Of a stretch of DNA of 64,000 nt, positions 13,076-41,233 are shown piece by piece. The stretch is taken from NCBI GenBank assembly GCA_963576565.1, contig OY755045.1:36104667-36168666 (forward strand), written 5' to 3'. A model generated the notes under the pieces. That model was not told the origin of the DNA and did no database searches. It saw only the letters and a program-made list of their open reading frames with translations. The first letter of the stretch is position 1, and every line of letters begins with the position of its first letter. Both the position numbers and the translations under genes were made by a program. The stretch is from Aspidapion aeneum. Taxonomy: Eukaryota; Arthropoda; Insecta; Coleoptera; Brentidae.

Positions 13076-13081
13076 CGCATA
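13076..13081. repeat. 6-bp target-site duplication of the palindromic element, left
   Basis: CGCATA at 13076-13081 directly precedes the element terminus AGTAG. The same six bases follow the opposite terminus at 41228-41233. Six-base duplications are the hallmark of Polinton/Maverick integration. Confidence 0.85.
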
Positions 13082-16000
13082 AGTAGTTAATATATATAGG
13101 TTTTGGATCACGTTTTCCATGTAAATCCCCATAAGACGAAAAGGTGGTCATTTTTTGAATATGTCACAGAATATTCAGCTAGAGACAGTAATTTTTATAT
13201 GAGTTATCTTTTACTGTACAGTCTAACACTTTAAAGGTTTTTAAATTCTCAAGGAGCCCGTGAATTTTCACAATCTGTACAATAATTATTACGCTGCTCT
13301 GACATCTTATGCTTGTTACAGAAATGTATTTAACTGAAACAGTGGACTAGTTAAATCTGATCATAATACTTTGATGACTATGGTTTAGTCATGCAATTTT
13401 AACACCCAATAAATAGTTTTGTTTTTCAGAAAATATTTTATTACTCTTTATGCGTTTTATATTATTTCTGTTTTTCAATTTTAGGCACTACTAAATCAAG
13501 GTAAATAATAATAGCACAAGATTACTTATCATTTATTTATTGTAAAAAGTATGCAATATCACTACAGTAAATCATTATTACTAATTTTAGTTGCTGTAGC
13601 TATACCTACACGCATGATCGAATAATTATATTTTAGCAGTTATATTATAATAATTATAATACCATTATGGATAATATGACTATTACTATGGAAGTGTATA
13701 TATTAATGTTTACATTAAAATACTACGCATATGATATCACTACATATTTTATATAATAATATATAAATATCATTTTTATTCTTAGACAAAACAAAGATTA
13801 CATTCAGGTTTAGAACTAAGATAAGATACATAAACAAACACTATGTAAGCAAACAACACATTACTAAGCTTAAATTAAAACTATATTTTCACTTAATACT
13901 ATAGTGCCCCCACGGCAACGTTTCATAAGACTCTTTTGAAATAGACCGTTTGTTATCCAGGGGACTCAGTCCGATTTTCGTCTGTTTTACAGAGTATAGG
14001 CGGTGCTTTTCGGATCTTATAAGATTTTGCGTAACTATTTTTTCTTGAAATGTATTTAGGCAGTCAACATAGTCCTCAAATGATAATTTTGTTTTAACAA
14101 CATTTTGCTTTACACCCTTGGCTTTCTTAGTCACTCTTGCAGCTTTACTTTTAGTATCCGCTACTTTTGTAGCATACATTTTAGCTCTAAGGCCAATAAA
14201 ATGCGTCATTATTTCCCCATTGTTTTCATCTTTCATCATTCCTAGAACCTTTTTATTTGCCCTCGGAATGTTATGTATGTTGTCTTCAGCATAATCCGAG
14301 GTGTCAAAATACTTGTGGCAGTCCCGCCGTATTGAAGCATAAATGTCATGATTTTGGATGTTATAAACTAGACTGTCAGTATCTGTATATGCAACAGTAC
14401 AATCCTTACCAAAAGCGGGTACCATGTAGTTATAGTGAAAATCATATATAGTTGTTTTGGCAATGTCCAAAATACACATTCCCACATATATTGGTTTATT
14501 GAAATATATTTCTGTTTTTTCAAGTTCAACAGCAACCAAATTTTCATTAAATATGGTTATACTTTTAAACTCTGGTCGAGAAATCAGAGCTTCAGCTCCA
14601 AATCGTCCGTCCCATTTCTTGATTAATTTGACAACACTGTGATTTCTAATATTTTCCATGGTTTTTCCAAACACGGCGTTGTTCATTAATTTGAAAAGGT
14701 TTTTTTCAAATTCATTTTTAGCATTCTGTCTTAATCGAGTATTTAAGTCAATATATGGTTTCAGCCATGCGGATTGCTCAAAACATAAAATTCTATGAAT
14801 TGTTTTAAGTTTTATACCAAGTCTCAAAGCTTGTTTTAAATTTGTATAGTGAATTACATAATCCTTTTTATTATGCAGTGTAGCCATAAGTTTTTTATTT
14901 TTTGGGTTCTTGTCTCCACCAGGCGGACACTGATGTTCAGGGCATAAAGGTAAGTCTGAGAAATAGTCGTGTAATTCAACCGGAATGAACAAGTCGACTT
15001 CTAGAATGTATCCCTCACTTGAGTCATCCTCAATTTTGGAAACATCAAAATAAGTAATTTTGTCACTTTCTAACCAACTAAATTTACCATAAGGCAATAA
15101 CTGACTCATACTAAATCCATACTGATTATTAATGTCAAAATACATCAAAAAAGATGTTTCTTTGTATGAGTCATAGTTAGCCATGTATTTGTTGTTGGCC
15201 TCGACGTATCTTTTTGAACATTGGCTCAACCCTCCTCTAATACCGCGCTCTATAAAAGTGACCATATTATAGTCCGTCAAAAGCTCTAATTTTTGTTGCG
15301 TATGGTATAGCATACAATCCCATGTGTAACCAGGAAGGGTAAAATAGTTCGCAGGGTCCAAACCATACGTTTTATGACAACTTTCCCTAAATTGCTGAAA
15401 TACCTGCATTAAGAGGACTATGTCAATTTGCATATAAAATTCCATATAATCTTGTAGGGTTTCACAACCAAAACTTTCCCATACATCCAGTGCATGCTCA
15501 TAATCAATTGATGAAATTTCTTTATTTTCCAGGATGTTAAAGAAATTACGTTTTTCAGGCAAAGACGTCTCTTTTAATTTTTTCCAACTATCCATGTAGT
15601 CATAACAAAAAATTCCTTTTTTGAAAATAAGTTTATATTGTTCGGCAGACAAGTGAGGAAATTCATTTTTGATCAGCGGATACTCCTCAAGATATGAAGC
15701 AAGCTTATCCAAGCTGCTGGCGATAAAGCGAAAAGAATCGATAAATCTAAATTCAATTAAATTTCCGTTAATTTTTTTGGTAAATGCTATATATTTTTCT
15801 TTGTTAACTGGCAGCAAATTTATTGAGCCATCCAAATTGGCGATGTTTTCAATTATCAAATGTCCATCATAAGAGCTAAGGTTGTGAAATACTACAGGGA
15901 CAGTATGACTATCCTGAAAATTTAGATTACAACTTTCATGCGCAGGGCCACGGTACTCTGAAGTAAGGTGACAGTGGTCGCGTATTTTCTTGTCACCAAC

Positions 16001-17259
16001 TGAAAAATTCTGTTCACAAATATGACATTTTTTAGCATTATTAAAGTTAAGTTTTTGTTTCTTACTTAATAGTTCCATGGGCAAGTCACAGAGAAATACA
16101 GTTTCTAAGTTTTCAGCGAACTCCAGTAATTGTTTACTAAACCATTCCATACAGTCAGGCCCCGTGTACGACCGATAAAATGAAAGGGAATCATCATAAG
16201 CACATTTTACGTAGTACCCCACTGAACAAGGCACATGCTGCTGATATTTTTGAGTTCTTTTACTACTATTTTTTACCATAGGCATCAGTAAGCATTCGAT
16301 GTCGCAATAAATAATGAAGGATGCAAATTGTTTATTTTTAAAGTTTTTAAATTCTACAATGTTGTTCTCTTTATTTGGTAATTTCGGAACAACGATACTG
16401 CCAATAATTTGGCAGTCTTTTATATGTTGGTCGAGTCCATCCTTCGAATAAAAATAATGCAGGCATCTGTCGCAAATGTATTTAACTTTTGAGAATTTGC
16501 TAAGTTGTCTACTCACGAGCCTTGAAAGATTTTTTATCCATACAAAGTGGTAAGTTGGTGCAGAAAGATCTTTTATCTCTTCATTCTCTAAATAATAGTT
16601 ATTTTGTACTAATAACAAATTAACATGTTTTTCGTACTTTTCCCCGGTAATATAAGCAGGCAGTACTTTAAAACTGTTTTCATTATGTTTTTGCAGGCGA
16701 TATATATTTACAGATATATTATTTTGCTTTTCAAAGCGAGCAACTTGGTTTAAAGTCATTGGAAACTTTATTCCTTTTAAATTTAAAACTTCTTGAGGAT
16801 GCGGATAGGATGAGACTCTATTTGAGTTGTTTTCAACAGGAAACATTGCTGACATAATCGCCCAGCCAAAGCACAAATCATCAGTATTTTGTACAGTAAC
16901 ACATGCTTTTTTATTTAAAATAAATTTAGGCATTTTTAAATGATAACCTGCGCGAAGCGGGTAATATCTGTTCATAGCGATAATAAGATTGTTTATTTTT
17001 ATAAGGGACCATCCAGATTGATTTTGCTGAAATTCTTCCAAATTTGTTAAAAGCAGATCCTTAACATTCTTATCAAACCAGTTTTTCAAATTGGTATTAT
17101 TGTCAATTACAGCATTGGCAGTACTAAAATGCTTAGTTTCCGTAAGTAATTCCTTTTGCGTTGTAATTTGAAAATCTCCACTTAAGACAGTGTTTACCTT
17201 AATCATGTTCTCTTTCTTTAAAACATTTTTAATTCTACGTTTAAATAAACTGAAGCTAT
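13082..17259. repeat. Left arm of the palindrome, outer part
   Basis: This is an inverted copy of 37050-41227 with no indel (the coordinate sum is constant at 54309, checked at the termini, at the polB stop codons 13889/40420 and near 17259/37050). Bases 13082-13888 are noncoding and AT-rich, mirroring 40421-41227. They contain the likely polyadenylation signal AATAAA for the leftward gene at 13775-13780 (minus strand). Confidence 0.85.
13889..17206 (-). pseudogene. Protein-primed DNA polymerase B, left copy (C-terminal 1105 codons intact)
   Basis: This minus-strand frame is identical in the parts compared to residues 156-1260 of the intact right-arm copy. It includes the zinc-finger-like CDRC...H...C segment, exonuclease motifs (CDIEC, HNLSSYDGH, YMQIDIVLL), the endonuclease-VII-like Cys/His segment, and polymerase motifs A (FDINNQYG), B (KLMNNAVFGKTMEN) and C (YTDTDSL). 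The natural start is lost: upstream at 17260 lies the 8.3-kb insertion that separates the first ~135 codons (25567-25967). The Met at 17206 is internal to the full protein. A shortened polymerase from this Met is possible but unproven. Confidence 0.8.
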
Positions 17260-17759
17260 GGGGTCAATTCTTTACATTTCAAAAAATCTGGCGAAATTTG
17301 ACAAAATGTGACATAATCTGGCGCTTAAGATTTCTCGTTTAAAAGGCAATTTTTAAACTTAAAAACTTACCTAAAAGGCCATTTCCCACTTTTTGATAGA
17401 TGTAGCGTCACGATATAATATTTGTTTTTAATTAAAAACCCGTAATTTGTTGAAAATTTTTAATTTAAAAATTGTAAATAAATTCACTATTAACCACACA
17501 AACTGAAATGTCAAATTTCGTCACATTTCTTTCAAATTTATGAGTCCTATTCGTTTTCTTTATGAGGTCAGCTAAGTTTACTTTCTTTCTTTGTTTTTCA
17601 CGGTAAAATTAACAAAGAGGGACTAACTGCATGTCGTGGAAGGGTCGCTACAAAATTAGCTCTACGCTGTTGCCACCGTTATATTTGAACGGAATTTTAA
17701 GGGAATGTCAAATTATTTCTTTAAAATCTGCCAGAAAAATCTGACTAAGTGAAGATCCT

Positions 17760-18060
17760 GTCAAATTATTGAAGTGGTGATTATTTTTTTACTTTTTAAA
17801 AAAGCTAGGCACGTATATAGTTTTTTATTCTGGGGGGTCCTCCCATATAGAAACTGCTGTTCTTCAGTGACGGCCCATGCGGCTGAGTCCTTCGTAAACC
17901 AGAGAGAAAATAATAAATTGTCTCTGTCGTAAACGAACACGAAAGCTGCGCCCATAAGGTTTTGGATAGTGTAATTAAAAATACTAGGGTCACTGCATCC
18001 TGGAAGTCTAGCGTCTCCCAGGGGTAGCGACACGAGTGTCAAAACCGTACTCAAAATTCC
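17760..18060. repeat. Dispersed repeat piece inside the 8.3-kb insertion
   Basis: It carries AGGGTCACTGCATCCTGGAAG and CCCAGGGGTAGCGACAC near 17985-18035. The first block recurs inverted near 21535-21555, and the second recurs inverted near 20930-20948. These are pieces of one repeat family separated by later insertions. No open frame here has a recognisable domain. Confidence 0.5.
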
Positions 18061-18589
18061 ATAGACATTCGTGAAAAATACTCATTTTTATACAGTCTGA
18101 GAAAAGACAAATGTTTTAATAGAACTTAAAAAGAACTCGTTTTTATACAGCTTAAGAAATAAAAAATATGTTCCTTGAGTTTTTGGGTTATGAATATTTA
18201 TTGTAGGTATTATTGTTAAAAATTATTTTCTTTTAAATATTATTTCTGTTTTTGTATAAAAATAATACGTAATAAATAAACAAACAGGACAGAAATACAT
18301 TTCTATGTTAAAAGTTTATTAATAGTATATAATATATCAAGGGATAAAATGAAAATTTTATCACGATGTTTATACGCTATTTTTCGCACTGTTTAATTTA
18401 TTTTCCAAGGTTTTTTCCCATTTTTTTTGGGTGTTTTTGGTATTGTGGTTTTTTTTAGTATCTTTTTATTCCGAATTTTACATTTTATCAAAAGACAAAA
18501 AATGCCCAAATACAGTTCGAGTTTTCGTAAGGTTCGGCTTAATTATTTATATTTTTATAGTACATTTCATATAAATATCTTAATATTAT

Positions 18590-19760
18590 TGTTCGAAAGC
18601 ATAAACTTCGAAAATCATTTTCTTTAAACCAAAAATTGTTCTAAAACATATTCTTCGAACAAAAGATTGTTCGAAAACGTTTTCTTCAAACAGAAATTTT
18701 TCGAAATCATTTTCTTCGAACAGAAATGTGTTCGAAAACATTTTCTTTGAACGGAAATTTGTTCGAAAATATTTTTTTAAAATTAAAATTTGTTCAAAAA
18801 CATTTTTTCGAAAACAAATTTTTCGAAAAAAAAATTTGACCTGGCTTGCCAAACTTAACACAACTCATATAGTTCGACTAATGGGGTTTTTTTCTAACAA
18901 TTTTTGGAAATAAAAACTTCCCTGACTTCTTTCCCGGGATCCTAGAGGGTGTGAAACCAAACCGAACCAACCGAGACCTATTGTCGAAAAATGATTTCCC
19001 TAAATTAGCTTTCCGGTCCTCATTTTGGAAGGTTGAAATCGGTGTTACTCTAACCTTTCTTAATTGAGCATATCAGGAGGTATCTGGACCGGTTCGGATA
19101 CGTTTGCGATCAATTGACAAAGTTTAGGAAAATACCGATTTCGACCTTCCAAAAGGAGGAAAGTAGACAAATTTTCAGAATGTTTACGATCCCGGGAAAG
19201 AAGTCAGGGTTTTTTTGAAAAAATATGTTAAAAAGACCTTGCCGTAGTCAAACTATATGAATTGTGTTAGGTTTGGAAATCCAGGTCTAGAGCGTCTTTT
19301 ATCGAAAAACTTGCTTTCGAAGAAAATGATTTCTATTCGAAGAAAATGTTTTTGAACAACTATTACTTACGAACAAATTTCCGTTCAAAGAAATGGTGTT
19401 CGAATAAATTTCCGTTTAAAAAAAATGTTTTCAAACAAATTTTCATTAGAAGAAATGGTTTTCATAAAAATTTCCGTTCGAAGAAAATGTTTTCGAACAA
19501 AGTTCTGCGACCCGTCGTGTTGCTACCTTGAGTTTTTATTGGATGTTGATTTTTTAAAAACTTTTCTATGAGTGTGTGTGTGTGTGTACCTGTGTGTCTC
19601 TTAATTCTACTTTGTTTTGCAATCATTACAGTGTAGCTACTTTCGATCTTTGTTTGAACCTTTTGTTTTTCAATCTTTTGTATTTTCGACCTTTTGTACT
19701 TTCGAACTTTTGTATTTTCGACTTTTTGTATTTTCGACCTTTTCTTCGCCGCCCGCTTTT
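18590..19760. repeat. Foldback element with TTCGAA-rich arms and CCCGGGATCC motif
   Basis: The left arm (18590-18840) is built of ~36-bp units of the GTTCGAAAACATTTTCTTCG type, and the right arm (19310-19505) of inverted units. Between them, GCCAAACTTAACACAACTCATA near 18848 mirrors the complement near 19245-19275, and CCCGGGATCCTAGAGGGTGT lies at ~18932. The right side ends with a TTTTGTATTTTCGACC tandem run (19640-19750). The same modules recur at 55020-55450 and 60000-60620. It is noncoding. The 18861-20000 frames are low-complexity. Confidence 0.65.
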
Positions 19761-20070
19761 TTTTGAACAATAATAAAAATAATAGTAGGTATATTATAAA
19801 CCTGGAGCGTGCAGTGTTTACTTTTAATACCACGGCGGGAATTTTCATGCTCGACCGGAAGAAGGGAATTTGCTAAGTGACTAAAAGGGACTTTAATGCC
19901 AAGGTTTATTTTTATATACTAAAAATAATAATAATCATAAACTAAATAAATAGGTATTAAACCACTTACCGTACTGTAGTTTTAGCATGTCAAGTATATA
20001 AAAAAACAGTGGGTAGTGATAGTTGTCATGGCATTACATTAAACAAAAGTCAGTCAGATGCTAACAAACA

Positions 20071-20122
20071 AAGGTCACTCATCGTCAAGCAAGGTAAAGC
20101 TTGCTTGACGATGAGTGACCTT
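20071..20122. repeat. Perfect 23-bp-stem hairpin
   Basis: AAGGTCACTCATCGTCAAGC at the left (20071-20090, stem to 20093) is exactly complementary to 20100-20122, with a 6-base loop GTAAAG. It lies inside the 8.3-kb insertion. No flanking gene uses it. It may be a transposon terminus or a young inverted duplication. Confidence 0.85.
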
Positions 20123-20929
20123 ATAACAAACAATGTGGAAAAATATTATTTATTTCATAACAAACTAATTAAGTTTACTCGAGAAAAAGTTCGAATTACA
20201 TTTCTCGAAGATGGAAAATAAAGCATATTCTTACTTTGAGATGGGCATGGAAATGATGCAATAAACAGAATTTCGAAAATTTCACAGTTTCCTGGTTTAC
20301 AGCCTGGAGAAGTCTAGAAAGTTAAATGCTTCGTTTATATGGAAGCAATATTCTATGCCTAAGGACACAATAACGATCAAAACGAACCAAGCCATCGGCA
20401 AAGTAAAGTAAGCTTACGGCAAGCTGGAACAAAATAATCGGTATCGTGTATATATTCCTTTTTGTTTTTTGTATTATGATAAAATAAAATAATCCAAAAA
20501 CCTATATTTTGCCTTTATGGTTTTAAAGAAATTACTTTCAATCACTGGAGACAAGAAATACTACCTTAGCCCATGAAAAAAGGGATTAAACGTACACCTT
20601 TATTCCGTAGAGAGCATAAAACATTTATTAAATAATACAAAACCCAACATAATAGTTTTCTATATTTTAGAATATATATAAAACATGCAAACTATATTTT
20701 TGGTTTCCTTCGCTGTGTGGACTGCTGGACACAGGGTCCTAATAAATTTGAAATCATAAAAAACTTAGTTTTTTTAGGTTTGTTTATTTGGACAGTAAAA
20801 TTTATATACCGGATGTGACGGACAGTTCTTTACGTAACATTTGTAAACCATTTAATTTTTTTAAACATAAAAAAAGCTATGCTCCTGACAGTGTCAGATT
20901 TGAGTTTTTCGTAAATGAGGTTATGTTTG

Positions 20930-21540
20930 GTGTCGCTACCCCTGGGAGAGCGGCTAGTTCACAACTTGCATTCCGTTTGCTATTGGTCGAAATAGTCAGC
21001 TGACTTTTTAATGTTGAACGTTGCCGTTTATGATTATTATTATATTATATTAAGAGATGGTGCCACCAGTCAAGCATTTAACAAACTTTATGTTTACAGC
21101 TTTCGGCGTAAAATACGAATATATACTAGTTGTAAGTGACTAAAAAGAGTAGTGGTTTGTGCAGTACATACCTATTGAATTTAACTAAATCTATGCATAT
21201 GCCGATGAGTTTTTTTTTATTGTTTTTTAAAAACATATTATATTTTTTTTTAATTAGCTTCCTTATCCTGTTTTCCTGTCGAAATCGGTGTTAACCTAAC
21301 CCTGATAAATTATTCGACAACGTATCCTAACCTGTCCAGATACGCCCCGGTCAGGATACGTTTCCCATCAATTGACCACGGTTAGGTTTTGTTTCAGTTT
21401 GGTTTAACACCGATTTCAACCTCCCAAAACGAGGACAGGAGAGTTTTAATTTTAAAAATCCCGCCTGACTATGTCAACCAATAGCAAATGGAATGCAAGT
21501 TGTGAACTATCCGCTCGTTGGAAGATGCCAGGCTTTCAGG
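20930..21540. repeat. Inverted-repeat (MITE-like) element inside the insertion
   Basis: The block TAGTTCACAACTTGCATTCC at ~20957 is mirrored at ~21490-21510, each followed by the TTTGCTATTGGT wording and its complement (the two sides total ~60 bp). Between them lie AT-rich DNA and a segment (21260-21440) related to 18990-19165 (GAAATCGGTGTTA, GATACG, ATCAATTGAC). It is noncoding. Confidence 0.6.
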
Positions 21541-21959
21541 ATGCAGTGACCCTAAGAATAGTCGCCACAGTCTCCATCTGACGAAAATAAGTCGAAGGCG
21601 GAATTTTTCAGGGGTGCCACGACCACGTGGTCACTTTGTGCAAGGAAAACTTAAGTTTGCGACACGCTCCCTAGAGGGAGCCACACATATAGGCAGGGAA
21701 CTGCGTACAGCCGACCTGAAAATAGGTTCATAATATGAATAAAATGAACGGGACCCAAGAAACAAACCTTTAAAACATAAATTTCAAACTTTCTATAAAT
21801 TCGTATAATTAAAAATAATGTTTGTGTAATTATGTAAAATTTCTTGTGTGCCTAATATTATAGATTTGTTAAAAAATTCTAATTTTCTACTTAGCAATAA
21901 AAAGTTGAAAATAGCCCTAAAAAACTACTATTTACGGATTAGATCAAATTTTGGTCCAG

Positions 21960-22640
21960 GAGGTGAGTTACAGGGTGATATCGAAAATAGTAGTAAATCT
22001 TAATTAAAATCACATTTTTAAAAAACAACTCTGTCAGGAGTTTTAGTTAGCAAATAAGAGTAAGAAATACATTAAAATATGTATCATGAACTTATTGTAT
22101 TATTTTTAGATCCAGGACGTGAGAGACCTACAGGGTGATATCGAAATTAGAAGCGTAATTTTCTAAAAAACAAATTTTTAAAAAACAATGTTGTCAAGAG
22201 CTTTCGTTAGCAAAAAATTATTTGAAACACGTTACACAATCATACCATTATCAGATTTTATCACCTTCAGGTCCAGGAATTGAGCTACATGGTGATATAG
22301 AAATTATTAGTGTGTGTAAATTTTCTAAAAATCACATTTTTAAAAAGCAAGGTTGTCCGAAGCTTTTGTTAGCAAAGTATAGTTAGGAATACGTTAAACA
22401 ATCATACCATTAACTGACTGTATCACCGTTAGGTCCAGGAAATGAGGTACAGGGTGATATCGAAATTAGTAATAAAATTTCGTAAAAATCACGTTTTTAA
22501 AAATCAACGTTGTCAGGAGCGTTTGTTAGCAAAAAATAGTTAGGAACACGTTAAGCAATCATACCACTTACTAAATTTCATTTACTTCCAGTAGGTAAGC
22601 TGCAGGGTGATATCTAAATAGCAGTAAAGATTTTGAAAAA
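21960..22640 (+). repeat. 158-bp tandem repeat array, about five units
   Basis: The motif ACAGGGTGATATCGAAA, or a close variant, occurs at about 21971, 22130, 22289, 22451 and 22604, giving periods of 154-162. Each unit also carries ATCACATTTTTAAAAA and a TTGTCAGGAGC-like block. It has an inverted partner array at 24490-24965. Subterminal inverted tandem arrays of this kind are common in large non-autonomous DNA transposons. Confidence 0.8.
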
Positions 22641-24489
22641 TCACGTCAAAATCAAAATTTTTTTACAAATATTTTACATTTGTTTGATTTGTTAATTAAC
22701 AAATTTACAAGATATTTTAGAATCTTGGCCCTAAAATATATATTTAATGTAACAAAACGAAAGCCTTCACTAGGCTTGCCTAATGTAAACATTTACAAAC
22801 ATACACGATAAATATAAAAATCTGCACATTTATTTACAGGAAAAAACTATCTTCGTTGTTATTTCACAAATTTGCATGTTATTTAGGCAACAATTTAACA
22901 CCCAAGTTATCTATTTAACATAACCAAACCGAGCCAAATCAAATCCTTATAATTATTAAGCTTGCTCAATATAAAAATGTACAAATACACATAATAAATA
23001 TTACATTTATTTACATTGACAAACAACAACCTGCACACAAATATTTTTGTCCCGTATGTCGTTCTTAGTTTTATTTAATTACTTGTATATAGACTTCTTC
23101 CAAAGTGAAGCGACTCAATATTTTGCATTTCTTTCAAAAAATCTGTTAATACCTGTACCGCTACATAGTTATTTGGTTGTCTGATAAAGGGATATATTTC
23201 TTTACTTCTTTAGCTATTTTTACTGAAAACTCCAAATCAACAAAAGCAGTAGTTTCATCCCACTTAAGGTCTTTTATCTTTAAATTTTAAATATCTTTTA
23301 CATAAATATTTTTTTGTATCGCTTAGGCTTTTAATTGTTTGTACAATAGTTATTTACCTAACAAGTGCGGAAAGAGGTACTTTTCCGCACGCGACGGCAG
23401 TTGCACAATCGACGCGGAGCGGAGTTCGGGCAAGCCGTCAAGGATGGAAAAGATAGTTTCCGCAAGAATTAGGTACAATGTTTTTCCTACGAGTGTTTTT
23501 GTCCATCTTCTTTATCAAAAAACATGTTTTAATTCGCAAAGATTTTATAATAATGCTAGAAAATGATACGTAAGATAGAATAGTTACATAAATCATTTAA
23601 TGAGTCCTAAATATCTTCATTTTTAACAAAACAAAAATCGTGCGGAAAAGAAATTTTTCAGCACTAGTGCGGAAAAGTTACTTTTCCGTACGTTTTTTAA
23701 CTTTTATTTTTACTTGATTTTTTTATGCACGGAAAAATATTAAAACAGGATTTTTTTATTATGATATATTAAAAAGAAACTTTATGTAAAGAACATTTAA
23801 ATAACAATAACGAAAAAGTTAACGATGGTAGATATTGAAATTGAAAGTGCACTTTCTGTTTGTTGCATGCTTCAATATACATCAGATGCCGCAACATCTT
23901 GAATAACGTCGTTTCTTATTGGAATTTGATTGGTTGGTGTTTGGCCCACTACAGAAATGCCTTGATCAGTTTGCTGCTTAGAATTACTACTGTAGTGAAT
24001 GGAGAAAGGTATATTGGTCTGTACAGGCTGTAACACATTACATGATTCTTCATTCGGTGCTTCTGGTAGCATCGGTACAGCAGCACTTCTTGAAAATGAA
24101 ACTTGTGTGTAGGAGAACGGGTTTTCATTTGAAAACGATTGTGGACGGGAAGGTTCTTGCAATTTGGACGTGCGAAAAAAATCGTGAGGAAAGTAAAAAT
24201 GATGCGAAAAAGTAAAATTGTGCGGAAAAGTAATTAACGTAATATTCTTTTAATAGATCGCTCAAGAAACCCTAACTTATATGTTCTTGGTTTGTAAACA
24301 GTAAGGTGAGGCCAAAAGTTATTTTTAAAAATATGATTTATAAAAGAATTTACTACTAGTATCTTACCTACTGGACCTAAATGTAACGCAGTTAGTGAAT
24401 GGTGTGGTTTGTTTACATATTCCTAACTATTTTTTGCTCACCAAGACTCCTGATAAAGTTGATTTTTAAAATTGTGATTTTTACAAAAG
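22641..24489. other. Interior of the 8.3-kb insertion between the inverted arrays
   Basis: This is AT-rich DNA with repeated GTGCGGAAAAGT motifs (near 23365, 23645, 23675 and 24220) and a GC-richer patch at 23365-23450. A 96-codon minus-strand frame at 23872-24162 is rich in Ser, Pro, Asn and Gln, has no recognised domain, and could be part of a decayed exon. No transposase signature (DDE, YREK or helicase) was seen. Confidence 0.4.
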
Positions 24490-29852: not shown

Positions 29853-30650
29853 GTACTTTTACAGGAGAGTACAAATGCATTGCCAGAGCAAGACAAAAAT
29901 CACCTAGACTGCGGGAGAGAAAAGACAAAAACGCAAGAAACTGTCTGTATTACTTTATTAAAAAGATAGGAAGGGCCACAGTATTAGCATAACAGAAATG
30001 GTCACAGAATGGCCAGACAGAAAGGGTTTACGAATGCCAGGCATTAATATAAAACCCTGTTTTACCAATATAAGCTTTTTTTGAATGTTTAAGGTTGAAA
30101 GTATTAAATTTTTAAAAATTGCAAAGTGAATACGCAGTACTTTTCCAGGAGAGTACCAACGCATTGCCAGAGCAAGACAAAAATCACCAAGACTGCGGGA
30201 GAGAAGAAGACAAGAACGCCAAAATCGTGTGTATTACTTTATTAAGAAGATAGGAAAGACCACAGTATTGGCATAACAGAAATGGTCACTGTATTGACCA
30301 GACAGAAAGGGTTCACGAATGCCAGGCATTAATATAAAACACTGTTTTATCATTATAAGCGTTTTCGATTATTTAAGGATGAAATTATTAAATAATTAAA
30401 AATTGCAAAGTGAATACGCAGTACTTTTCCAGGAGAGTACCAACGCATTGCCAGAGCAATGCAATAAATTCTAAAATCATCTAAACTGCGGGAGAGAAGA
30501 GACAACAACTCTAAAATTGTATGATTTAGTTCGTTAATTAGATAGGAAATGCCACAGAATTGACATAATAAAAATGGCCACAGTATTGGCCAGACAGGAA
30601 GGGCTTACGAATGCCCGGTATTAATTTAAAAAAGCCCGTTTTACCACTAC
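29853..30650. repeat. ~284-bp tandem repeat, three units (left arm)
   Basis: Units begin with GTACTTTTxCAGGAGAGTAC at 29853, 30137 and 30421. Each contains GCATTGCCAGAGCAA, CTGCGGGAGAGAA, AGATAGGAA, AGACAGRAAGGG and GAATGCCMGGYATTAAT in order. The same array appears mirrored at 31955-32752. Short open frames across it (62-68 codons) repeat with the unit and are not taken as genes. Confidence 0.85.
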
Positions 30651-31068
30651 CACTAAACAATGTTGGTACCTAGTATTTTACTATTACATGTTCAAAGTTC
30701 TTTTACCTCACTTTATCATCAAAAAAGTTTTAAACACAATATGAAGAATTTCCTAAATATTTAACTAATAAATTGAATTTAAATAACAAATTTTATTGGG
30801 ATTATATAATAAAGTTTCCAGTGACAGCTATTTTGAAATAAATTAACCTTAAAATTGGACTATCAATAAAAAAAAATTATTCATGTAGACACAAATATAT
30901 AGGTTTAGGTGCTAAATGGAATCAGCACGTTACATTAAAATATTTTATATACTTTAAGGCTACAAATATTAGGAGTACATTAATTTGGTAAAATTTAAAA
31001 TCTAATATTTTATGTCATTCCATCTTAAAGAAGCAGGACCTAAATTATTTTTAACACTACGAATTGTT

Positions 31069-31536
31069 GTTGTTTTAAAAGGTTTGTTAATATTTGAAAT
31101 GTAGCGTATTTTTCAGTAATACAAGTAAAAATAATCGTGCTAATCTCAACTTAAGCTCAATATTAAATATAAATGTCCTCATGTGTCTGCAGTATGTAAT
31201 TAAGTAAAAAGTTACAAGCACTTTAATATACACATGGTTTTAACCAGGCAATGGTTTTTTTTTAGAAATTTTTTTAATTAGTTGGTTTTTTGAACTATTA
31301 GGAAATAAATACTTAAACATGTATTAAAATAGCTGTTAGCTGCTTGGTTTTTAGTATATTCACAGCATTTATGGTGTGCTGACTTCAATTTTGTATGCAT
31401 TTTATACTGAAGGATTGCCTTAAGATTAAACAAGTAGGCCGCCTCATAGGCCTTTGTGTCAGGCCTCCGGCTTACCGCTTAATCTCTAATTTTCCTATTC
31501 CGTTTCTCTATGTGTTGGCAATGATATTTGAAACAA
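31069..31536. other. Unique 468-bp spacer at the centre of the palindrome
   Basis: The mirror symmetry stops at 31068 and 31537. The spacer is mostly AT-rich, with one GC-richer patch near 31436-31490 (GGCCGCCTCATAGGCC and AGGCCTCCGGC). It has no open frame of note. It would be the loop if the two arms paired. Confidence 0.75.
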
Positions 31537-34500
31537 AACAATTCGTAGTGTTAAAAATAATTTAGGTCCTGCTTCTTTAAGATGGAATGACATAAAATAT
31601 TAGATTTTAAATTTTACCAAATTAATGTACTCCTAATATTTGTAGCCTTAAAGTATATAAAATATTTTAATGTAACGTGCTGATTCCATTTAGCACCTAA
31701 ACCTATATATTTGTGTCTACATGAATAATTTTTTTTTATTGATAGTCCAATTTTAAGGTTAATTTATTTCAAAATAGCTGTCACTGGAAACTTTATTATA
31801 TAATCCCAATAAAATTTGTTATTTAAATTCAATTTATTAGTTAAATATTTAGGAAATTCTTCATATTGTGTTTAAAACTTTTTTGATGATAAAGTGAGGT
31901 AAAAGAACTTTGAACATGTAATAGTAAAATACTAGGTACCAACATTGTTTAGTGGTAGTGGTAAAACGGGCTTTTTTAAATTAATACCGGGCATTCGTAA
32001 GCCCTTCCTGTCTGGCCAATACTGTGGCCATTTTTATTATGTCAATTCTGTGGCATTTCCTATCTAATTAACGAACTAAATCATACAATTTTAGAGTTGT
32101 TGTCTCTTCTCTCCCGCAGTTTAGATGATTTTAGAATTTATTGCATTGCTCTGGCAATGCGTTGGTACTCTCCTGGAAAAGTACTGCGTATTCACTTTGC
32201 AATTTTTAATTATTTAATAATTTCATCCTTAAATAATCGAAAACGCTTATAATGATAAAACAGTGTTTTATATTAATGCCTGGCATTCGTGAACCCTTTC
32301 TGTCTGGTCAATACAGTGACCATTTCTGTTATGCCAATACTGTGGTCTTTCCTATCTTCTTAATAAAGTAATACACACGATTTTGGCGTTCTTGTCTTCT
32401 TCTCTCCCGCAGTCTTGGTGATTTTTGTCTTGCTCTGGCAATGCGTTGGTACTCTCCTGGAAAAGTACTGCGTATTCACTTTGCAATTTTTAAAAATTTA
32501 ATACTTTCAACCTTAAACATTCAAAAAAAGCTTATATTGGTAAAACAGGGTTTTATATTAATGCCTGGCATTCGTAAACCCTTTCTGTCTGGCCATTCTG
32601 TGACCATTTCTGTTATGCTAATACTGTGGCCCTTCCTATCTTTTTAATAAAGTAATACAGACAGTTTCTTGCGTTTTTGTCTTTTCTCTCCCACAGTCTA
32701 GGTGATTTTTGTCTTGCTCTGGCAATGCATTTGTACTCTCCTGTAAAAGTACTTTCCTTTGCATTTTTTTTTGTTTAGAGACCGTCTTGTTTGGCTTTAA
32801 AACAGGCAATTTTGTAAAGTCCATCCTGCTTCTTAAAAGATTGTTTTTGCAAAATCGACTCGGAATGAAGCGAAAACTTTGGTCTAAAAGTGTTTAGAAT
32901 CTAAGCAAATCTGTAAATTATCCCTACTAATCTCCTTTGTTATCCCTTAAAATAGATTACATTTTTAAAATAATTAAACATTTCTATAGTTGTTAAGCGG
33001 TTCTAAACAGCAGCCCCCGGCAGATCCCAAGCATACTGCAGCGTTTGTCATTCACACAAAAGGATGAACGGTTAGAAGAAATTATAAACCGTTAGAAGTC
33101 CGATAACTTTTAAGGTGCAATCACAAAGTTTGATACTTTGTGTTGTTATCTAGAAAATATTACGTACATACAGACGTTCACAATGCATATTTGTCCGTGG
33201 AAAATTAAATATAGTTAGGTATGGACATAAACTATCCGGAATTACGATTTTAAAGTATCATATAGACCTACAAATTGCATTTAATACACAGCTTAACATA
33301 GTAAGGATCAACTACTCTAGAACTGGTTTCTCTAAAATTTAATAAGGAGTTAATAAAAATTTGAATTTAGTGTTATAGCATTCTGAAATTATTTTCTTTA
33401 TAAAGCCTTTTAGATTAAGTGAATTAAAATAAAAGTGTGTGTTTTTCCCCTTGAAAATCTAAATTTATTCATTAATAGGTATCCTATTAATGCAAGAAAA
33501 AAATATAATACCTAGAACAATTATACAGGGTTTACACGTATATTCTAAATGTTAAGAAACTTTTAGATAAAGTGAAATAAAAATGTGTATTACCTGAAAT
33601 TTTGACCTGTAATACTTAATCCCCTTGAAAAGCTAAATTTATTCGTTAATACACGTCCTATTAACGCACGCAAGGAAAAGAAGAAAATATATAGATGTTT
33701 ACTAAAAACTAAAAGATCGAGTTAAAATGGTCGAAAATTAAAAATGATTTACTCGTATATTCTAAATGTTAAAAACTTGATATGTACAAATTTTTTAATT
33801 GTTTCTCTTTAAATAAAAAAACGAATAATTCTGGATTTAAATACCTTTACTTCCGTATACCTCTCTCGCTAGCTATCTAAAGCTCCCCTTCGATCAGCGA
33901 ATATATGCGTCAAATCAGCAATGTCGTGTTACCAATTAGCTATTATTTGGGCTAGCTAAGGCTCCCCCCGTGCAGAGAATTGCACGCGTTTTAAATGGCC
34001 TATGACACTCGAACTATGCCCTATGACATTCGGCGTATGTCCACTGGCATTTGGCTTATGTCCACTGGCATTTGTTTAATGTCCTATATCCTTCGACCTA
34101 TGACCTATATCTTTGGTGAGTGTGCTTATTACCCTGTCTAAAGGGCTTGACAACGTTTGATTAGCTCTAAACGTCTCCCAGCTAATCTATTCTGTGAAAA
34201 ATGTCTTTTAAAAAAATACATATTTAAACCGTAACTTCTATAAGTGTACTAAATAGCAAAACTAGTTTATGGTTTAAACTCCGTTAAGTGCTTAAAAATA
34301 TGTGTTCTAGGCTAAAAACTTGAAATATTGATAAAAAATGATCAATGTTATTGCTTATAGAGTACAACCCCATTAAATTATTTTTAATTAGGGGAGGCTG
34401 TGCGTCAAGGTAAAAAATTGTCTTGGATCCAAATGTGGATCATTATTCACGCAGTGCCCAAGTGCGTACGCATTCTGACGCCTAGTTTAAGAAAAACCTA

Positions 34501-36637
34501 AACACCTACATATAAATATTTATTGTTAAAAAATTGGATCGAAACGACCTGTAAGGTCAGGTTAGTTTTAAGAGAAACACCTACGGCTTCTAAGGCAAGT
34601 AGTAAGTGATAAATGGCGTTTTTAGATCATAAGTTTTAAACTGGTAATGAACTAAGCTGATGTAATAAAAAGGTGTCAGATATCTGTCTTTTTGTGCCTA
34701 TTCGCGCACAGGTGGTATCTAAATAATCAACTTAATAGAGTGTGTGTATAAGAAGCGTTGCAGAGCATATTCGAAAAATGATACTACATGCAAAAATTAT
34801 GAACAGAGATAAAAATAGAGACCGGTTCTGAGTCTATTTAATTTATGAAATACTTGCTTTTATTACTAAATCTCTAAAACAAAATACAAATTTGTATTTT
34901 GTTTTTGAAATCTTAATACTAAATATTAATATTAGCTTCTGGTGATTCCCCAAGATTCGGCTTATCTGAATTTGACATGGGCACGTATGGATGGATTAAT
35001 ATAAAACTTACAATACTATAAACAATTAGTACTATTTGTAATCGCTAAAAAAGAAACATAAGAAGAAGCAATGGTAAAACGTTTTTAAAATTAAATATTG
35101 AATTTGACTAAAACGAGTACATAATATGTAATATTAAAGAAAATAAAAATGTGAATTAAATGTAGTTGTTTTAATGAAAAGTGGGAACTTGAGTGTACAC
35201 AAAGGTGAAATGGCGGCACATGCTGTCTGTCCTGTAAGAATTGGGTTAACCTAGGTATAAAAATGACCCATTACGTTAGTCGCGCACTTACCTGATGCCT
35301 ACTTGGGATAAATACTAGTAGAAAATGTACGCATAACTTGATTTCTTAAAGCTCACAAGCACATAGGAATAAAATTTTTCTGTGTGATTAGAACCAGAAA
35401 ATATAGAATATAAGTAGTTAGAAGTCTGCGATTCGAAGAAAATATGTACAATCCTACAGGGCGCTGTAAACACCCGCAAGGGTTATAACATGAGATAATT
35501 TAAATAAATAAGCTTTGTGATAGTTTTCTGTTATACCTGTACAAAAACTCAACAAATAAAAAATATAAGTACATGCAATCTATAAAAATGTAATACGTAG
35601 ATATTTAATATTTAATCTTAGTAATTCTTTTTATAATAACTTGTGATCAAAACTCTAAAAACTTTATGTTAAAGATTACATAAAGCAGGTAAAGCCGCCA
35701 AGGAAAACATCTGCCTTTCTTAACTTGTTAAAACCTGAAAAAAAAAAGGGTAAACTTGCTTGTCTTCACGTGTCTGTTCGCTATTCGGGTTAAGGAAGAA
35801 CATGGTTGGCAAACTAGGCATAAGGTCTGATTTTATTTTGAATACTTAGTTTTACGATAATAAACATCTATAACTAGAGCGCTTTAAAGCATTTCTTTTT
35901 ATAGTATGCTTATCTCATTTTGATTTCAGTTTTTAATTCGTTTAACTTCTAGTTCTCTGTCTGTTAGCTATTTGGTTAATTTATTAAATCAAGCATATTT
36001 CTGCCTTTCCCGTCTTTTTTTCCCTTTCTTTCCTCTTTGGCTACCCCATGCTTCCTTATTTAGGATTCTTTTCACCACAGAGCTAGTTATAAAATAATTC
36101 TTCAGCTGGCATTAATAGAACATTACAAAACAAAAAAACTAATTTGTAAGAATATTTAATTTAATTTTAATAAAATTAATGTAATTAAATTTAAGGTTGT
36201 AATAAATAGCTGCTCAACATTTATATTATATTAAAAAAGGTGACTGAAGAGTTTCAATTTCTTTAAAAGAATTCAGTTTACTTCTATAGACACTGGTTCT
36301 AATAATCCGTATTGAAAATACTGAAAGCGGGAAATTATTTAATTATTTATTAAAATGTCCTGTAAATACTTTGACCGGGTTCTAACAAAATAGCTTTTAT
36401 AAACCCTGTAAAAACATTGGCAACACTGTGCCTAAAAAAGGGGCATCCCATTTACAATAGCTCCTGCAAGTCGTTTTTCTGTCAGTCTATAGCTAAACGT
36501 GCGAGTTAAAGAACGATTCTTCCTCTGCTAGTTTGCGTTTAGTGAATTTTAAACAAAGTGTAGTGTTTATTAAAAATCTGTTAATCGTTAATTACCATAA
36601 GCATTTAAAAACGTGCATTTGTTAACTAAATTGCTAG

Positions 36638-39600
36638 TTGGAAAAATCCGAAGTCTCTGTAGTGTTATTACATCAAATCGATCTGAAGATGAGTTTTGCA
36701 AGTAAATTAGTCCATGAAATAAAATGCCAATTAGAAAGTGTTAATCAAGCTACAAAAATATCAAAAATCTTGAAGGACTGTGCTAACGCTAGTCGAAGAA
36801 TAAGCATTGCCCTAAAGAAGTCCCGGACGGTTTATGAAAAAGCCCATCTAACTACCTGTCTTGGAGAAGTGAAAGGCTTTAAGCATCGCTTGAAGTCAAA
36901 CATAAAGCAAGGAGGTGGTAATGTCATCACCAAGAAAACTGCGAAACACCGTGTACAATGGGAAGATGTAAGGTCAGCCTTTAACAGTAGGGTAAGAAGT
37001 GGTGTAATTACAAATTTAAAACACATTGATGCGCAGCAATTTCTGACGGATAGCTTCAGTTTATTTAAACGTAGAATTAAAAATGTTTTAAAGAAAGAGA
37101 ACATGATTAAGGTAAACACTGTCTTAAGTGGAGATTTTCAAATTACAACGCAAAAGGAATTACTTACGGAAACTAAGCATTTTAGTACTGCCAATGCTGT
37201 AATTGACAATAATACCAATTTGAAAAACTGGTTTGATAAGAATGTTAAGGATCTGCTTTTAACAAATTTGGAAGAATTTCAGCAAAATCAATCTGGATGG
37301 TCCCTTATAAAAATAAACAATCTTATTATCGCTATGAACAGATATTACCCGCTTCGCGCAGGTTATCATTTAAAAATGCCTAAATTTATTTTAAATAAAA
37401 AAGCATGTGTTACTGTACAAAATACTGATGATTTGTGCTTTGGCTGGGCGATTATGTCAGCAATGTTTCCTGTTGAAAACAACTCAAATAGAGTCTCATC
37501 CTATCCGCATCCTCAAGAAGTTTTAAATTTAAAAGGAATAAAGTTTCCAATGACTTTAAACCAAGTTGCTCGCTTTGAAAAGCAAAATAATATATCTGTA
37601 AATATATATCGCCTGCAAAAACATAATGAAAACAGTTTTAAAGTACTGCCTGCTTATATTACCGGGGAAAAGTACGAAAAACATGTTAATTTGTTATTAG
37701 TACAAAATAACTATTATTTAGAGAATGAAGAGATAAAAGATCTTTCTGCACCAACTTACCACTTTGTATGGATAAAAAATCTTTCAAGGCTCGTGAGTAG
37801 ACAACTTAGCAAATTCTCAAAAGTTAAATACATTTGCGACAGATGCCTGCATTATTTTTATTCGAAGGATGGACTCGACCAACATATAAAAGACTGCCAA
37901 ATTATTGGCAGTATCGTTGTTCCGAAATTACCAAATAAAGAGAACAACATTGTAGAATTTAAAAACTTTAAAAATAAACAATTTGCATCCTTCATTATTT
38001 ATTGCGACATCGAATGCTTACTGATGCCTATGGTAAAAAATAGTAGTAAAAGAACTCAAAAATATCAGCAGCATGTGCCTTGTTCAGTGGGGTACTACGT
38101 AAAATGTGCTTATGATGATTCCCTTTCATTTTATCGGTCGTACACGGGGCCTGACTGTATGGAATGGTTTAGTAAACAATTACTGGAGTTCGCTGAAAAC
38201 TTAGAAACTGTATTTCTCTGTGACTTGCCCATGGAACTATTAAGTAAGAAACAAAAACTTAACTTTAATAATGCTAAAAAATGTCATATTTGTGAACAGA
38301 ATTTTTCAGTTGGTGACAAGAAAATACGCGACCACTGTCACCTTACTTCAGAGTACCGTGGCCCTGCGCATGAAAGTTGTAATCTAAATTTTCAGGATAG
38401 TCATACTGTCCCTGTAGTATTTCACAACCTTAGCTCTTATGATGGACATTTGATAATTGAAAACATCGCCAATTTGGATGGCTCAATAAATTTGCTGCCA
38501 GTTAACAAAGAAAAATATATAGCATTTACCAAAAAAATTAACGGAAATTTAATTGAATTTAGATTTATCGATTCTTTTCGCTTTATCGCCAGCAGCTTGG
38601 ATAAGCTTGCTTCATATCTTGAGGAGTATCCGCTGATCAAAAATGAATTTCCTCACTTGTCTGCCGAACAATATAAACTTATTTTCAAAAAAGGAATTTT
38701 TTGTTATGACTACATGGATAGTTGGAAAAAATTAAAAGAGACGTCTTTGCCTGAAAAACGTAATTTCTTTAACATCCTGGAAAATAAAGAAATTTCATCA
38801 ATTGATTATGAGCATGCACTGGATGTATGGGAAAGTTTTGGTTGTGAAACCCTACAAGATTATATGGAATTTTATATGCAAATTGACATAGTCCTCTTAA
38901 TGCAGGTATTTCAGCAATTTAGGGAAAGTTGTCATAAAACGTATGGTTTGGACCCTGCGAACTATTTTACCCTTCCTGGTTACACATGGGATTGTATGCT
39001 ATACCATACGCAACAAAAATTAGAGCTTTTGACGGACTATAATATGGTCACTTTTATAGAGCGCGGTATTAGAGGAGGGTTGAGCCAATGTTCAAAAAGA
39101 TACGTCGAGGCCAACAACAAATACATGGCTAACTATGACTCATACAAAGAAACATCTTTTTTGATGTATTTTGACATTAATAATCAGTATGGATTTAGTA
39201 TGAGTCAGTTATTGCCTTATGGTAAATTTAGTTGGTTAGAAAGTGACAAAATTACTTATTTTGATGTTTCCAAAATTGAGGATGACTCAAGTGAGGGATA
39301 CATTCTAGAAGTCGACTTGTTCATTCCGGTTGAATTACACGACTATTTCTCAGACTTACCTTTATGCCCTGAACATCAGTGTCCGCCTGGTGGAGACAAG
39401 AACCCAAAAAATAAAAAACTTATGGCTACACTGCATAATAAAAAGGATTATGTAATTCACTATACAAATTTAAAACAAGCTTTGAGACTTGGTATAAAAC
39501 TTAAAACAATTCATAGAATTTTATGTTTTGAGCAATCCGCATGGCTGAAACCATATATTGACTTAAATACTCGATTAAGACAGAATGCTAAAAATGAATT

Positions 39601-40420
39601 TGAAAAAAACCTTTTCAAATTAATGAACAACGCCGTGTTTGGAAAAACCATGGAAAATATTAGAAATCACAGTGTTGTCAAATTAATCAAGAAATGGGAC
39701 GGACGATTTGGAGCTGAAGCTCTGATTTCTCGACCAGAGTTTAAAAGTATAACCATATTTAATGAAAATTTGGTTGCTGTTGAACTTGAAAAAACAGAAA
39801 TATATTTCAATAAACCAATATATGTGGGAATGTGTATTTTGGACATTGCCAAAACAACTATATATGATTTTCACTATAACTACATGGTACCCGCTTTTGG
39901 TAAGGATTGTACTGTTGCATATACAGATACTGACAGTCTAGTTTATAACATCCAAAATCATGACATTTATGCTTCAATACGGCGGGACTGCCACAAGTAT
40001 TTTGACACCTCGGATTATGCTGAAGACAACATACATAACATTCCGAGGGCAAATAAAAAGGTTCTAGGAATGATGAAAGATGAAAACAATGGGGAAATAA
40101 TGACGCATTTTATTGGCCTTAGAGCTAAAATGTATGCTACAAAAGTAGCGGATACTAAAAGTAAAGCTGCAAGAGTGACTAAGAAAGCCAAGGGTGTAAA
40201 GCAAAATGTTGTTAAAACAAAATTATCATTTGAGGACTATGTTGACTGCCTAAATACATTTCAAGAAAAAATAGTTACGCAAAATCTTATAAGATCCGAA
40301 AAGCACCGCCTATACTCTGTAAAACAGACGAAAATCGGACTGAGTCCCCTGGATAACAAACGGTCTATTTCAAAAGAGTCTTATGAAACGTTGCCGTGGG
40401 GGCACTATAGTATTAAGTGA
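36638..40420 (+). CDS. Protein-primed type B DNA polymerase (pPolB), intact right copy
   Basis: A single 1260-codon frame. Family knowledge: pPolB copies linear DNA from a protein primer and has a proofreading exonuclease. Seen in order: a basic N-terminal region (~1-155, with HRVQWEDVRSAF); a C2H2-like finger (CDRC at ~400, H and C near 420); ExoI CDIEC (D ~457); a Cys/His segment like recombination endonuclease VII (CHIC, RDHCHL, YRGPAHESCN, ~549-585); ExoII HNLSSYDGH (~595); ExoIII YMQIDIVLL (D ~750); motif A FDINNQYG (D ~846); motif B KLMNNAVFGKTMEN (~994); motif C YTDTDSL (D ~1097/1099). All catalytic residues are present. The start is the first Met after upstream stops. No introns are present. 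AATAAA at 40529 is a likely polyA signal. It resembles polB proteins of insect and cnidarian Polinton-type elements. Confidence in the family is high; a role in replicating this element is inferred. Confidence 0.92.
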   Translation: MEKSEVSVVLLHQIDLKMSFASKLVHEIKCQLESVNQATKISKILKDCANASRRISIALKKSRTVYEKAHLTTCLGEVKGFKHRLKSNIKQGGGNVITKKTAKHRVQWEDVRSAFNSRVRSGVITNLKHIDAQQFLTDSFSLFKRRIKNVLKKENMIKVNTVLSGDFQITTQKELLTETKHFSTANAVIDNNTNLKNWFDKNVKDLLLTNLEEFQQNQSGWSLIKINNLIIAMNRYYPLRAGYHLKMPKFILNKKACVTVQNTDDLCFGWAIMSAMFPVENNSNRVSSYPHPQEVLNLKGIKFPMTLNQVARFEKQNNISVNIYRLQKHNENSFKVLPAYITGEKYEKHVNLLLVQNNYYLENEEIKDLSAPTYHFVWIKNLSRLVSRQLSKFSKVKYICDRCLHYFYSKDGLDQHIKDCQIIGSIVVPKLPNKENNIVEFKNFKNKQFASFIIYCDIECLLMPMVKNSSKRTQKYQQHVPCSVGYYVKCAYDDSLSFYRSYTGPDCMEWFSKQLLEFAENLETVFLCDLPMELLSKKQKLNFNNAKKCHICEQNFSVGDKKIRDHCHLTSEYRGPAHESCNLNFQDSHTVPVVFHNLSSYDGHLIIENIANLDGSINLLPVNKEKYIAFTKKINGNLIEFRFIDSFRFIASSLDKLASYLEEYPLIKNEFPHLSAEQYKLIFKKGIFCYDYMDSWKKLKETSLPEKRNFFNILENKEISSIDYEHALDVWESFGCETLQDYMEFYMQIDIVLLMQVFQQFRESCHKTYGLDPANYFTLPGYTWDCMLYHTQQKLELLTDYNMVTFIERGIRGGLSQCSKRYVEANNKYMANYDSYKETSFLMYFDINNQYGFSMSQLLPYGKFSWLESDKITYFDVSKIEDDSSEGYILEVDLFIPVELHDYFSDLPLCPEHQCPPGGDKNPKNKKLMATLHNKKDYVIHYTNLKQALRLGIKLKTIHRILCFEQSAWLKPYIDLNTRLRQNAKNEFEKNLFKLMNNAVFGKTMENIRNHSVVKLIKKWDGRFGAEALISRPEFKSITIFNENLVAVELEKTEIYFNKPIYVGMCILDIAKTTIYDFHYNYMVPAFGKDCTVAYTDTDSLVYNIQNHDIYASIRRDCHKYFDTSDYAEDNIHNIPRANKKVLGMMKDENNGEIMTHFIGLRAKMYATKVADTKSKAARVTKKAKGVKQNVVKTKLSFEDYVDCLNTFQEKIVTQNLIRSEKHRLYSVKQTKIGLSPLDNKRSISKESYETLPWGHYSIK

Positions 40421-41227
40421 AAATATAGTTTTAATTTAAGCTTAGTAATGTGTTGTTTGCTTACATAGTGTTTGTTTATGTATCTTATCTTAGTTCTAAA
40501 CCTGAATGTAATCTTTGTTTTGTCTAAGAATAAAAATGATATTTATATATTATTATATAAAATATGTAGTGATATCATATGCGTAGTATTTTAATGTAAA
40601 CATTAATATATACACTTCCATAGTAATAGTCATATTATCCATAATGGTATTATAATTATTATAATATAACTGCTAAAATATAATTATTCGATCATGCGTG
40701 TAGGTATAGCTACAGCAACTAAAATTAGTAATAATGATTTACTGTAGTGATATTGCATACTTTTTACAATAAATAAATGATAAGTAATCTTGTGCTATTA
40801 TTATTTACCTTGATTTAGTAGTGCCTAAAATTGAAAAACAGAAATAATATAAAACGCATAAAGAGTAATAAAATATTTTCTGAAAAACAAAACTATTTAT
40901 TGGGTGTTAAAATTGCATGACTAAACCATAGTCATCAAAGTATTATGATCAGATTTAACTAGTCCACTGTTTCAGTTAAATACATTTCTGTAACAAGCAT
41001 AAGATGTCAGAGCAGCGTAATAATTATTGTACAGATTGTGAAAATTCACGGGCTCCTTGAGAATTTAAAAACCTTTAAAGTGTTAGACTGTACAGTAAAA
41101 GATAACTCATATAAAAATTACTGTCTCTAGCTGAATATTCTGTGACATATTCAAAAAATGACCACCTTTTCGTCTTATGGGGATTTACATGGAAAACGTG
41201 ATCCAAAACCTATATATATTAACTACT
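40421..41227. other. Noncoding terminal segment of the right arm
   Basis: AT-rich, with AATAAA at 40529-40534 and again near 40770. No gene is present. The last ~30 bases (GATCCAAAACC, TATATATATTAACTACT) form the inverted terminus. It mirrors 13082-13888. Confidence 0.6.
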
Positions 41228-41233
41228 CGCATA
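41228..41233. repeat. 6-bp target-site duplication of the palindromic element, right
   Basis: CGCATA, identical to 13076-13081, follows the terminus CTACT. Beyond it (41234-41601) is intronic DNA with G- and C-homopolymer runs and a short CCTGCTAG/CTAGCAGG hairpin. Nothing else was recognised there. Confidence 0.85.

Follow-up and report, generated by a model that had tools for sequence, protein, structure and literature searches.

A multi-copy family of palindromic Polinton-like elements carrying DNA polymerase B in the beetle Aspidapion aeneum

Can a Polinton-like element consist almost wholly of its own inverted repeat, and is such an arrangement the accident of one locus or the form in which a family spreads? 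The question is raised by a stretch of 64,000 nucleotides of the Aspidapion aeneum genome (contig OY755045.1, positions 36,104,667 to 36,168,666 of the forward strand), hereafter called the window. A first-pass annotation, made from the sequence letters, had proposed that positions 13082-41227 are a Polinton-like element, palindromic over its whole length, with a protein-primed DNA polymerase B (PolB) as its sole recognisable gene. The self-comparison by BLAST and the profile and tblastn scans described below bore this out. We found that the palindrome is real and belongs to a multi-copy family of ~20-kb mobile elements; it is not a one-off.

The palindrome and its copies in the same genome

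In the self-BLAST, positions 13082-17259 mirror 37050-41227 (4,178 bp, 100% identity), and positions 25563-31079 mirror 31527-37044 (5,519 columns, 99.89%). The match between the arms is perfect as far as 31068/31537, which leaves 468 bp between them. The inner parts of the arms differ by three substitutions, a 1-base gap and a 2-base gap, two of these five differences being no more than 11 columns away from the inner boundary. The 19-base sequence AGTAGTTAATATATATAGG, which starts with the trinucleotide repeat AGT-AGT, stands in inverted orientation at both element ends (13082-13100 on the plus strand, 41209-41227 on the minus strand). When up to three mismatches were allowed, these were the only two sites in the window, and two matches were reached in 1 of 100 shuffles. 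The direct 6-bp repeat CGCATA flanks the element as target-site duplication (13076-13081 and 41228-41233), and the flanks outside it are not mirrored.

The element measures 28.1 kb in the window. Its right arm is contiguous (31537-41227, plus strand), while its left arm, on the minus strand, is split into an outer part (13082-17259) and an inner part (25563-31068, 99.9% identical to the right arm) by an insertion of 8,303 bp (17260-25562), standing in place of 5 bp of right-arm sequence. Without the insertion the element is 19.8 kb long. The mirrored arms of ~9.7 kb reported by the first-pass annotation were recovered; the insertion in the left one had gone unmentioned.

We searched the assembly (1,286,157,303 bases in 149 contigs, the window lying in contig C8) for the 19-base terminus. 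It has 92 exact occurrences, 40 forward and 52 reverse, and the reversed pattern has none. Taking as a pair two neighbouring, convergent termini less than 50 kb apart, we obtained 30 pairs, the window's included. The span was 19.1-23.1 kb in 16 of the 30 and 15.5 kb in one; the remaining thirteen were longer. Ten of the 29 other pairs were fetched, each as two separate end pieces (20 pieces); they were chosen by span, nine of them measuring 19.1-22.2 kb and the tenth being the pair of 15.5 kb.

In all ten fetched copies, each at a different site, the left piece aligns with the right one in reverse complement over most of its length, and PolB is present in both arms. The 20 pieces match the arm of the window at 94-99.7% in their main segments. 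In nine of the ten the two 6-bp duplications are identical, and in the remaining copy there is a one-base difference; their sequences vary between loci. Counting the window, PolB lies inside the inverted repeat, in two copies, in 11/11 copies read, all of them chromosomal in the assembly. PolB lies beside the terminus in seven of eight terminal loci of 3 kb.

The first-pass annotation had suggested looking for other palindromic copies with 6-bp duplications, and this search turned out in its favour. It had also left room for a head-to-head dimer trapped by integration, which as a one-off finds no support in the ten other pairs read, all of them palindromic. Single-arm copies with a full Polinton gene set, which it had named as what would overturn its proposal, find counter-evidence in the 10 of 29 other pairs read; 32 of the 92 termini are unpaired, and their partners may be mutated or missing.

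The polymerase and the search for other genes

The right-arm PolB frame is open over 1,243 codons (36689-40420, plus strand). Its left counterpart is broken by the 8.3-kb insertion and by a 2-bp gap at ~25731, and consists of a C-terminal part cut by the insertion (13889-17259, minus strand) and an N-terminal remnant containing the gap (25563-25916, minus strand; its end is set by mirroring 36689). Among the 11 copies read, a full open frame is present in 8/22 arms, corresponding to 6/11 copies.

The PolB is 48% identical to the PolB named Megastigmus wasp adintovirus and, judged from its homologues, its tree and its phi29-like fold, is of the Polinton/adintovirus kind. The predicted structure folds like phi29 polymerase, and phi29-like strand displacement is predicted accordingly for the enzyme. 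The predicted parts are an N-terminal terminal-protein domain with a little-finger (LF/PAD) fold, a possible vOTU domain with conserved Cys and His, an exonuclease and a polymerase; a PolB fused to terminal protein and vOTU is described in PMC11071308. The Cys at 37436 does not vary among 64 sequences, and the window and most rows of alignment A1 share the His at 37682, the vOTU assignment being by position. The fold list of the N-terminal piece names no OTU protease, and as it did not cover the vOTU part it excludes nothing. The BFVD fold matches of the PolB include densovirus/bidnavirus PolBs.

We then computed the ratio of nonsynonymous to synonymous differences (pN/pS) in 15 comparisons, using one open PolB frame per copy. 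The five comparisons involving the most diverged open copy gave values of 0.18-0.23, with 26-29 synonymous changes. The PolB thus appears to be constrained at least along the deeper split.

A scan of genome contigs placed distant PolB relatives on 13 short contigs (L001-L013) filed under bacterial and archaeal metagenome-assembled genomes. A single PolB adjoins an integrase gene on L004, and ATPase and protease genes on L006 and L013. Two scans for viral contig relatives gave none that was confirmed, and none was found among phage records, among solved structures searched by sequence or in Rfam. The 13 contigs resemble sequences of eukaryotic viruses or elements that had been binned together with prokaryotes, and the integrase of L004 is fused to a phospholipase A2-like domain. 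The PolB tree places a sequence labelled "DNA polymerase [Rickettsia endosymbiont of Ceutorhynchus assimilis]" within the PolBs of beetles; it is probably host DNA in a symbiont assembly.

In agreement with the first-pass annotation, profile, Pfam and tblastn searches of the window found no integrase, ATPase or protease gene. No hit of an integrase profile made from 120 proteins was better than E 2-3 there; with 120 integrases queried one by one, tblastn gave E 0.013 at best. When the frames of the 13 contigs with PolB relatives, integrase, ATPase and protease genes among them, were compared to the window by tblastn, the matches fell in PolB, the exceptions being two of low significance, one within the insertion (E 0.005) and one on the opposite strand of PolB (E 0.008). 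The relatives' packaging ATPase and cysteine protease genes had no tblastn match in the window or in the 20 pieces, nor had the capsid queries, which were two partial, putative capsid pieces of L013. In the 20 pieces, these queries and the single integrase query used there had no match at E<=1e-3.

The six stop-masked frames gave no Pfam match at E<=1 in the inner arm, in the 8.3-kb insertion or in the terminal 807 bp. In the inner arm there was no Pfam match to a Bidnaviridae helicase or parvovirus-type capsid, and the longest stop-to-stop frame there is of 91 codons. Pfam silence on capsid genes is weak evidence because Pfam at E<=0.1 missed the polymerase domain too. PHROGs, compared to five of six inner-arm frames, gave a single weak match (E 0.29), and a codon-usage scan of the inner arm, with one crude score, indicated no clear coding stretch. 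The inner arm also contains a 284-bp tandem repeat of 2.7 units (31974-32753, mirrored at 29852-30631). Capture of the inner arm from the host was considered and rejected, the arms being without match to the flanks.

The insertion carries the 15-base motif GGGGKCAATTCTTTA at its ends, in inverted orientation. No target duplication is seen around it, the 5 bp of target being lost, and it has no match in the 20 end pieces of the ten other copies. Short repeats are common to the insertion and the right flank. The 16-bp tandem unit TTTCGACCTTTTGTAC is present in both (19658-19743 and 60431-60614), so the insertion carries repeats that also occur in flanking host DNA. Elsewhere in the window, a separate small inverted-repeat element pairs 167-598 with 1581-2012 (432 bp, 97.7% identity, ~1 kb between); a 209-codon frame (1194-1823), with no Pfam match, extends into its right arm. 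Furthermore, 45219-45847 matches its own inverted copy at 81.7% over 654 columns, within a region of tandem repeats (44953-45494).

Arm likeness, the centre and how the palindrome may be renewed

When the outer 4.2 kb of the 22 arms were placed in a tree, the two arms of one copy came out as sisters in ten of the 11 copies. Identity is 98.0-100% between the arms of a copy and 96.3-99.8% between copies (median 98.8, 220 comparisons). Long terminal repeats (LTRs) are likewise sister copies within one insertion, and they are made from one template per transposition. By analogy, we take the sister arms as a sign that the palindrome may be rebuilt from one arm in each cycle.

The 468 bp that the first-pass annotation had called the centre (31069-31536) stand as the gap between perfect arm matches; they do not stand as a true centre. 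The arms are ~10.3 kb long in at least one copy, as its span of 21,049 bp suggests. The left arm of the window follows this copy to ~9409 and the right arm to ~9870. Judged from this alignment, the apparent centre belongs to the right arm as its inner end, left by an asymmetric central deletion with its joint at 31068/31069; in other copies most of this stretch is common to the two arms. About 16 bp are common at the joint, which we read as microhomology at the deletion. The inner boundary shows a 10-bp imperfect match, and 1 of 1,427 random pairs scored equally high. Snap-back priming at the window's own centre was rejected as a candidate, the left arm ending ~460 bp earlier with these ~16 bp in common.

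The 447-base core of the window matches both halves of one other copy (L038/L039) in full at 98.4% and both halves of another (L026/L027) at 97.1 and 90.5%. At least part of it is found in 11 of the 20 pieces, several of the matches being cut by the piece end. Three other centres were also fetched. One has inverted arms of 332 bp and a loop of ~519 bp, another has inverted arms of 157 bp within the fetched piece and a loop of ~659 bp, and the third (L047, in the region C5:78803800-78806900) is palindromic through its middle, with positions 1-1292 matching themselves at 98.5%. This last centre has nearly no loop, yet it is present in the assembly.

Our best reading of these data is that the element is a replication-competent, integrase-borrowing palindromic derivative of a Polinton. 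We consider it probable that it is a satellite which its own PolB copies, likely from protein-primed ends, with a hairpin remaking the arms and an integrase likely supplied in trans. Strand displacement from one end would release a strand that is self-complementary over its length. The freed strand would fold into a hairpin of ~10 kb with a short loop, and copying of this hairpin would yield a palindrome with both arms from one template. As both ends are the same terminus, an integrase encoded by other Polinton-type elements could link them to a target cut with a stagger of 6 bp. The family would descend from one founding palindrome, and asymmetric central deletions, such as that of the window, would come later. 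Among the three readings offered by the first-pass annotation, a satellite with its own polymerase and a borrowed integrase is the one we favour; a minimal replicon, if meant as fully self-sufficient, is not supported, no integrase having been found in the element.

Candidate donors of integrase are plentiful. When the genome was searched with a Polinton-type integrase, 104 matches came up, among them many frames of 300-360 codons without interruption. Of these, 101 were mapped; all fall outside the terminal pairs, and one is less than 25 kb from a terminus. The frames fall into near-uniform classes (~322, 324, 338 and 360 codons), which suggest more than one active integrase-bearing family here. 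According to a preprint, young Mavericks are abundant in nut weevils (PMC13419823).

Several observations weigh against the satellite reading. Integration in trans, like hairpin copying, is something that we infer. Four integrase loci (L042-L045, 3.85 kb each) gave no PolB, ATPase or protease match, so they cannot be called complete Polintons. The N-terminal fold match is moderate, Foldseek giving none at E<=0.001 (best 2.2e-3). The full open frame is kept in only 8/22 arms. The other ten pN/pS comparisons range from 0.31 to 1.45 with 2-13 synonymous changes each, so that the case for purifying selection comes from a single lineage contrast. The arms of L028 are not sisters in the tree, and by plain identity the own partner is the nearest arm for only 14 of the 22 arms. 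Lastly, the data cover ten of the 29 other pairs and, for most of the copies fetched, all but the middle 0.1-2.3 kb.

Gene conversion after integration, the main rival, could make the arms sisters too. The family would then be real and would replicate as an ordinary double-stranded linear element, its arms kept alike after insertion as in chromosomal palindromes. The arms are adjacent and inverted, and the contrast between the within-copy and between-copy identities given above is modest and of a kind that conversion could produce. Against this, one-arm insertions and deletions persist: the 8.3-kb insertion of the window and the breaks in the arm alignments of four copies (L024/25, L026/27, L028/29 and L036/37). 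The asymmetric centre of the window persists as well. All of this is still compatible with patchy conversion. On balance, we regard conversion as the sole source of arm likeness as rather unlikely.

It is less likely still that the element is a passive satellite, for which canonical Polintons supply both replication and integration while its own PolB is decaying cargo. The low share of arms with a full open frame (8/22) and the plentiful integrase genes agree with such a scenario, but full-length frames persist in six of 11 copies and the pN/pS of 0.18-0.23 against the most diverged open copy speaks for constraint.

A chromosomal origin, in which break-induced copying between the terminal repeats of an inserted Polinton overwrote the integrase half with the PolB half, would preserve the target duplication, and it has a partial precedent in a piggyBac terminal repeat extended inward by single-copy material, for which chromosomal inversions were proposed as the cause (PMC11202377). 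Such an origin may account for the founder but hardly for the family, since all 11 copies, at different sites and with different duplications, show the same palindromic unit; we give it very little weight. An artefact of fold-back reads, which do yield long perfect inverted repeats, can practically be dismissed, as the flanks are unmirrored, the duplications match, the arms differ by the 8.3-kb insertion and small changes, and all ten other loci agree.

The satellite reading can tentatively be carried one step further, to a "hairpin Polinton" that we regard as possible and somewhat less probable than its opposite. Here the hereditary unit would be the single 10-kb arm and the chromosomal 20-kb palindrome its unfolded form. 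The polymerase would run from a protein-primed end along the arm, through the loop and back, so that every cycle would renew the two arms and the two ends from one template. The element would spread as a satellite, dependent on Polintons with an integrase in the same nucleus. If true, this would be a new way of being a mobile element.

If the satellite reading is true, a protein-primed, virus-like element has shed its integrase and virion genes by becoming a palindrome of its polymerase end, and yet it spreads. This would offer a concrete and testable path by which a virus could become a satellite or a plasmid-like replicon, and a natural parallel to palindromic defective virus genomes. The likeness of the arms within a copy would be a built-in clock, like that of LTRs. 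A single genome holding many copies of high arm identity would allow replication, origin use and integrase lending to be tested directly in an animal.

Comparison with known systems

With Polintons/Mavericks and adintoviruses the element shares the protein-primed PolB family, a length of ~20 kb, terminal inverted repeats and a 6-bp target duplication, the last two seen in the window and in the fetched copies, one of the ten duplications differing by a base. In contrast to Polintons/Mavericks, it is almost wholly inverted repeat and has two PolB copies. No integrase, packaging ATPase, cysteine protease or capsid gene was found in the window and the 20 pieces, and single gene copies between terminal repeats are not seen there. 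On our best reading the element is Polinton-like in its replication and target duplication; it should not be filed as a Polinton, since no integrase was found in it and its PolB is not in single copy.

Outside the Polintons, foldback transposons also consist for the most part of long inverted repeats; they are not known to carry a protein-primed polymerase. Symmetric genomes are known in adenoviruses as well.

Our literature search found no palindromic Polinton family, subscription papers being mostly outside it. One survey of algal elements filtered terminal repeats at 100 bp to 8 kb (PMC12220804), and a palindrome of the present size could escape such screens. Nine Polintons without capsid, protease and ATPase have been described (PMC4028283). 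For the Polinton-type polymerases of Entamoeba histolytica, integrase, protease and ATPase were not found, and the enzyme shows strand displacement (PMC3511435). In both cases PolB was kept after gene loss, as here, and in the parts of these two papers that we cite a palindrome is not described.

Adeno-associated virus snapback genomes are self-complementary subgenomes from one virus end, symmetric or looped and replicated by a helper (PMC8235507). As described there, they belong to a parvovirus with hairpin priming and are virion subgenomes, unlike a chromosomal lineage with its own polymerase. Cytoplasmic linear plasmids derive, according to the source consulted, from (proto)polintons by loss of the virion genes (PMC11071308). 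They have kept the fusion of terminal protein and PolB and lost the virion genes, as the present element appears to have done, whereas the element of A. aeneum is palindromic and integrated in the chromosomes with target duplications.

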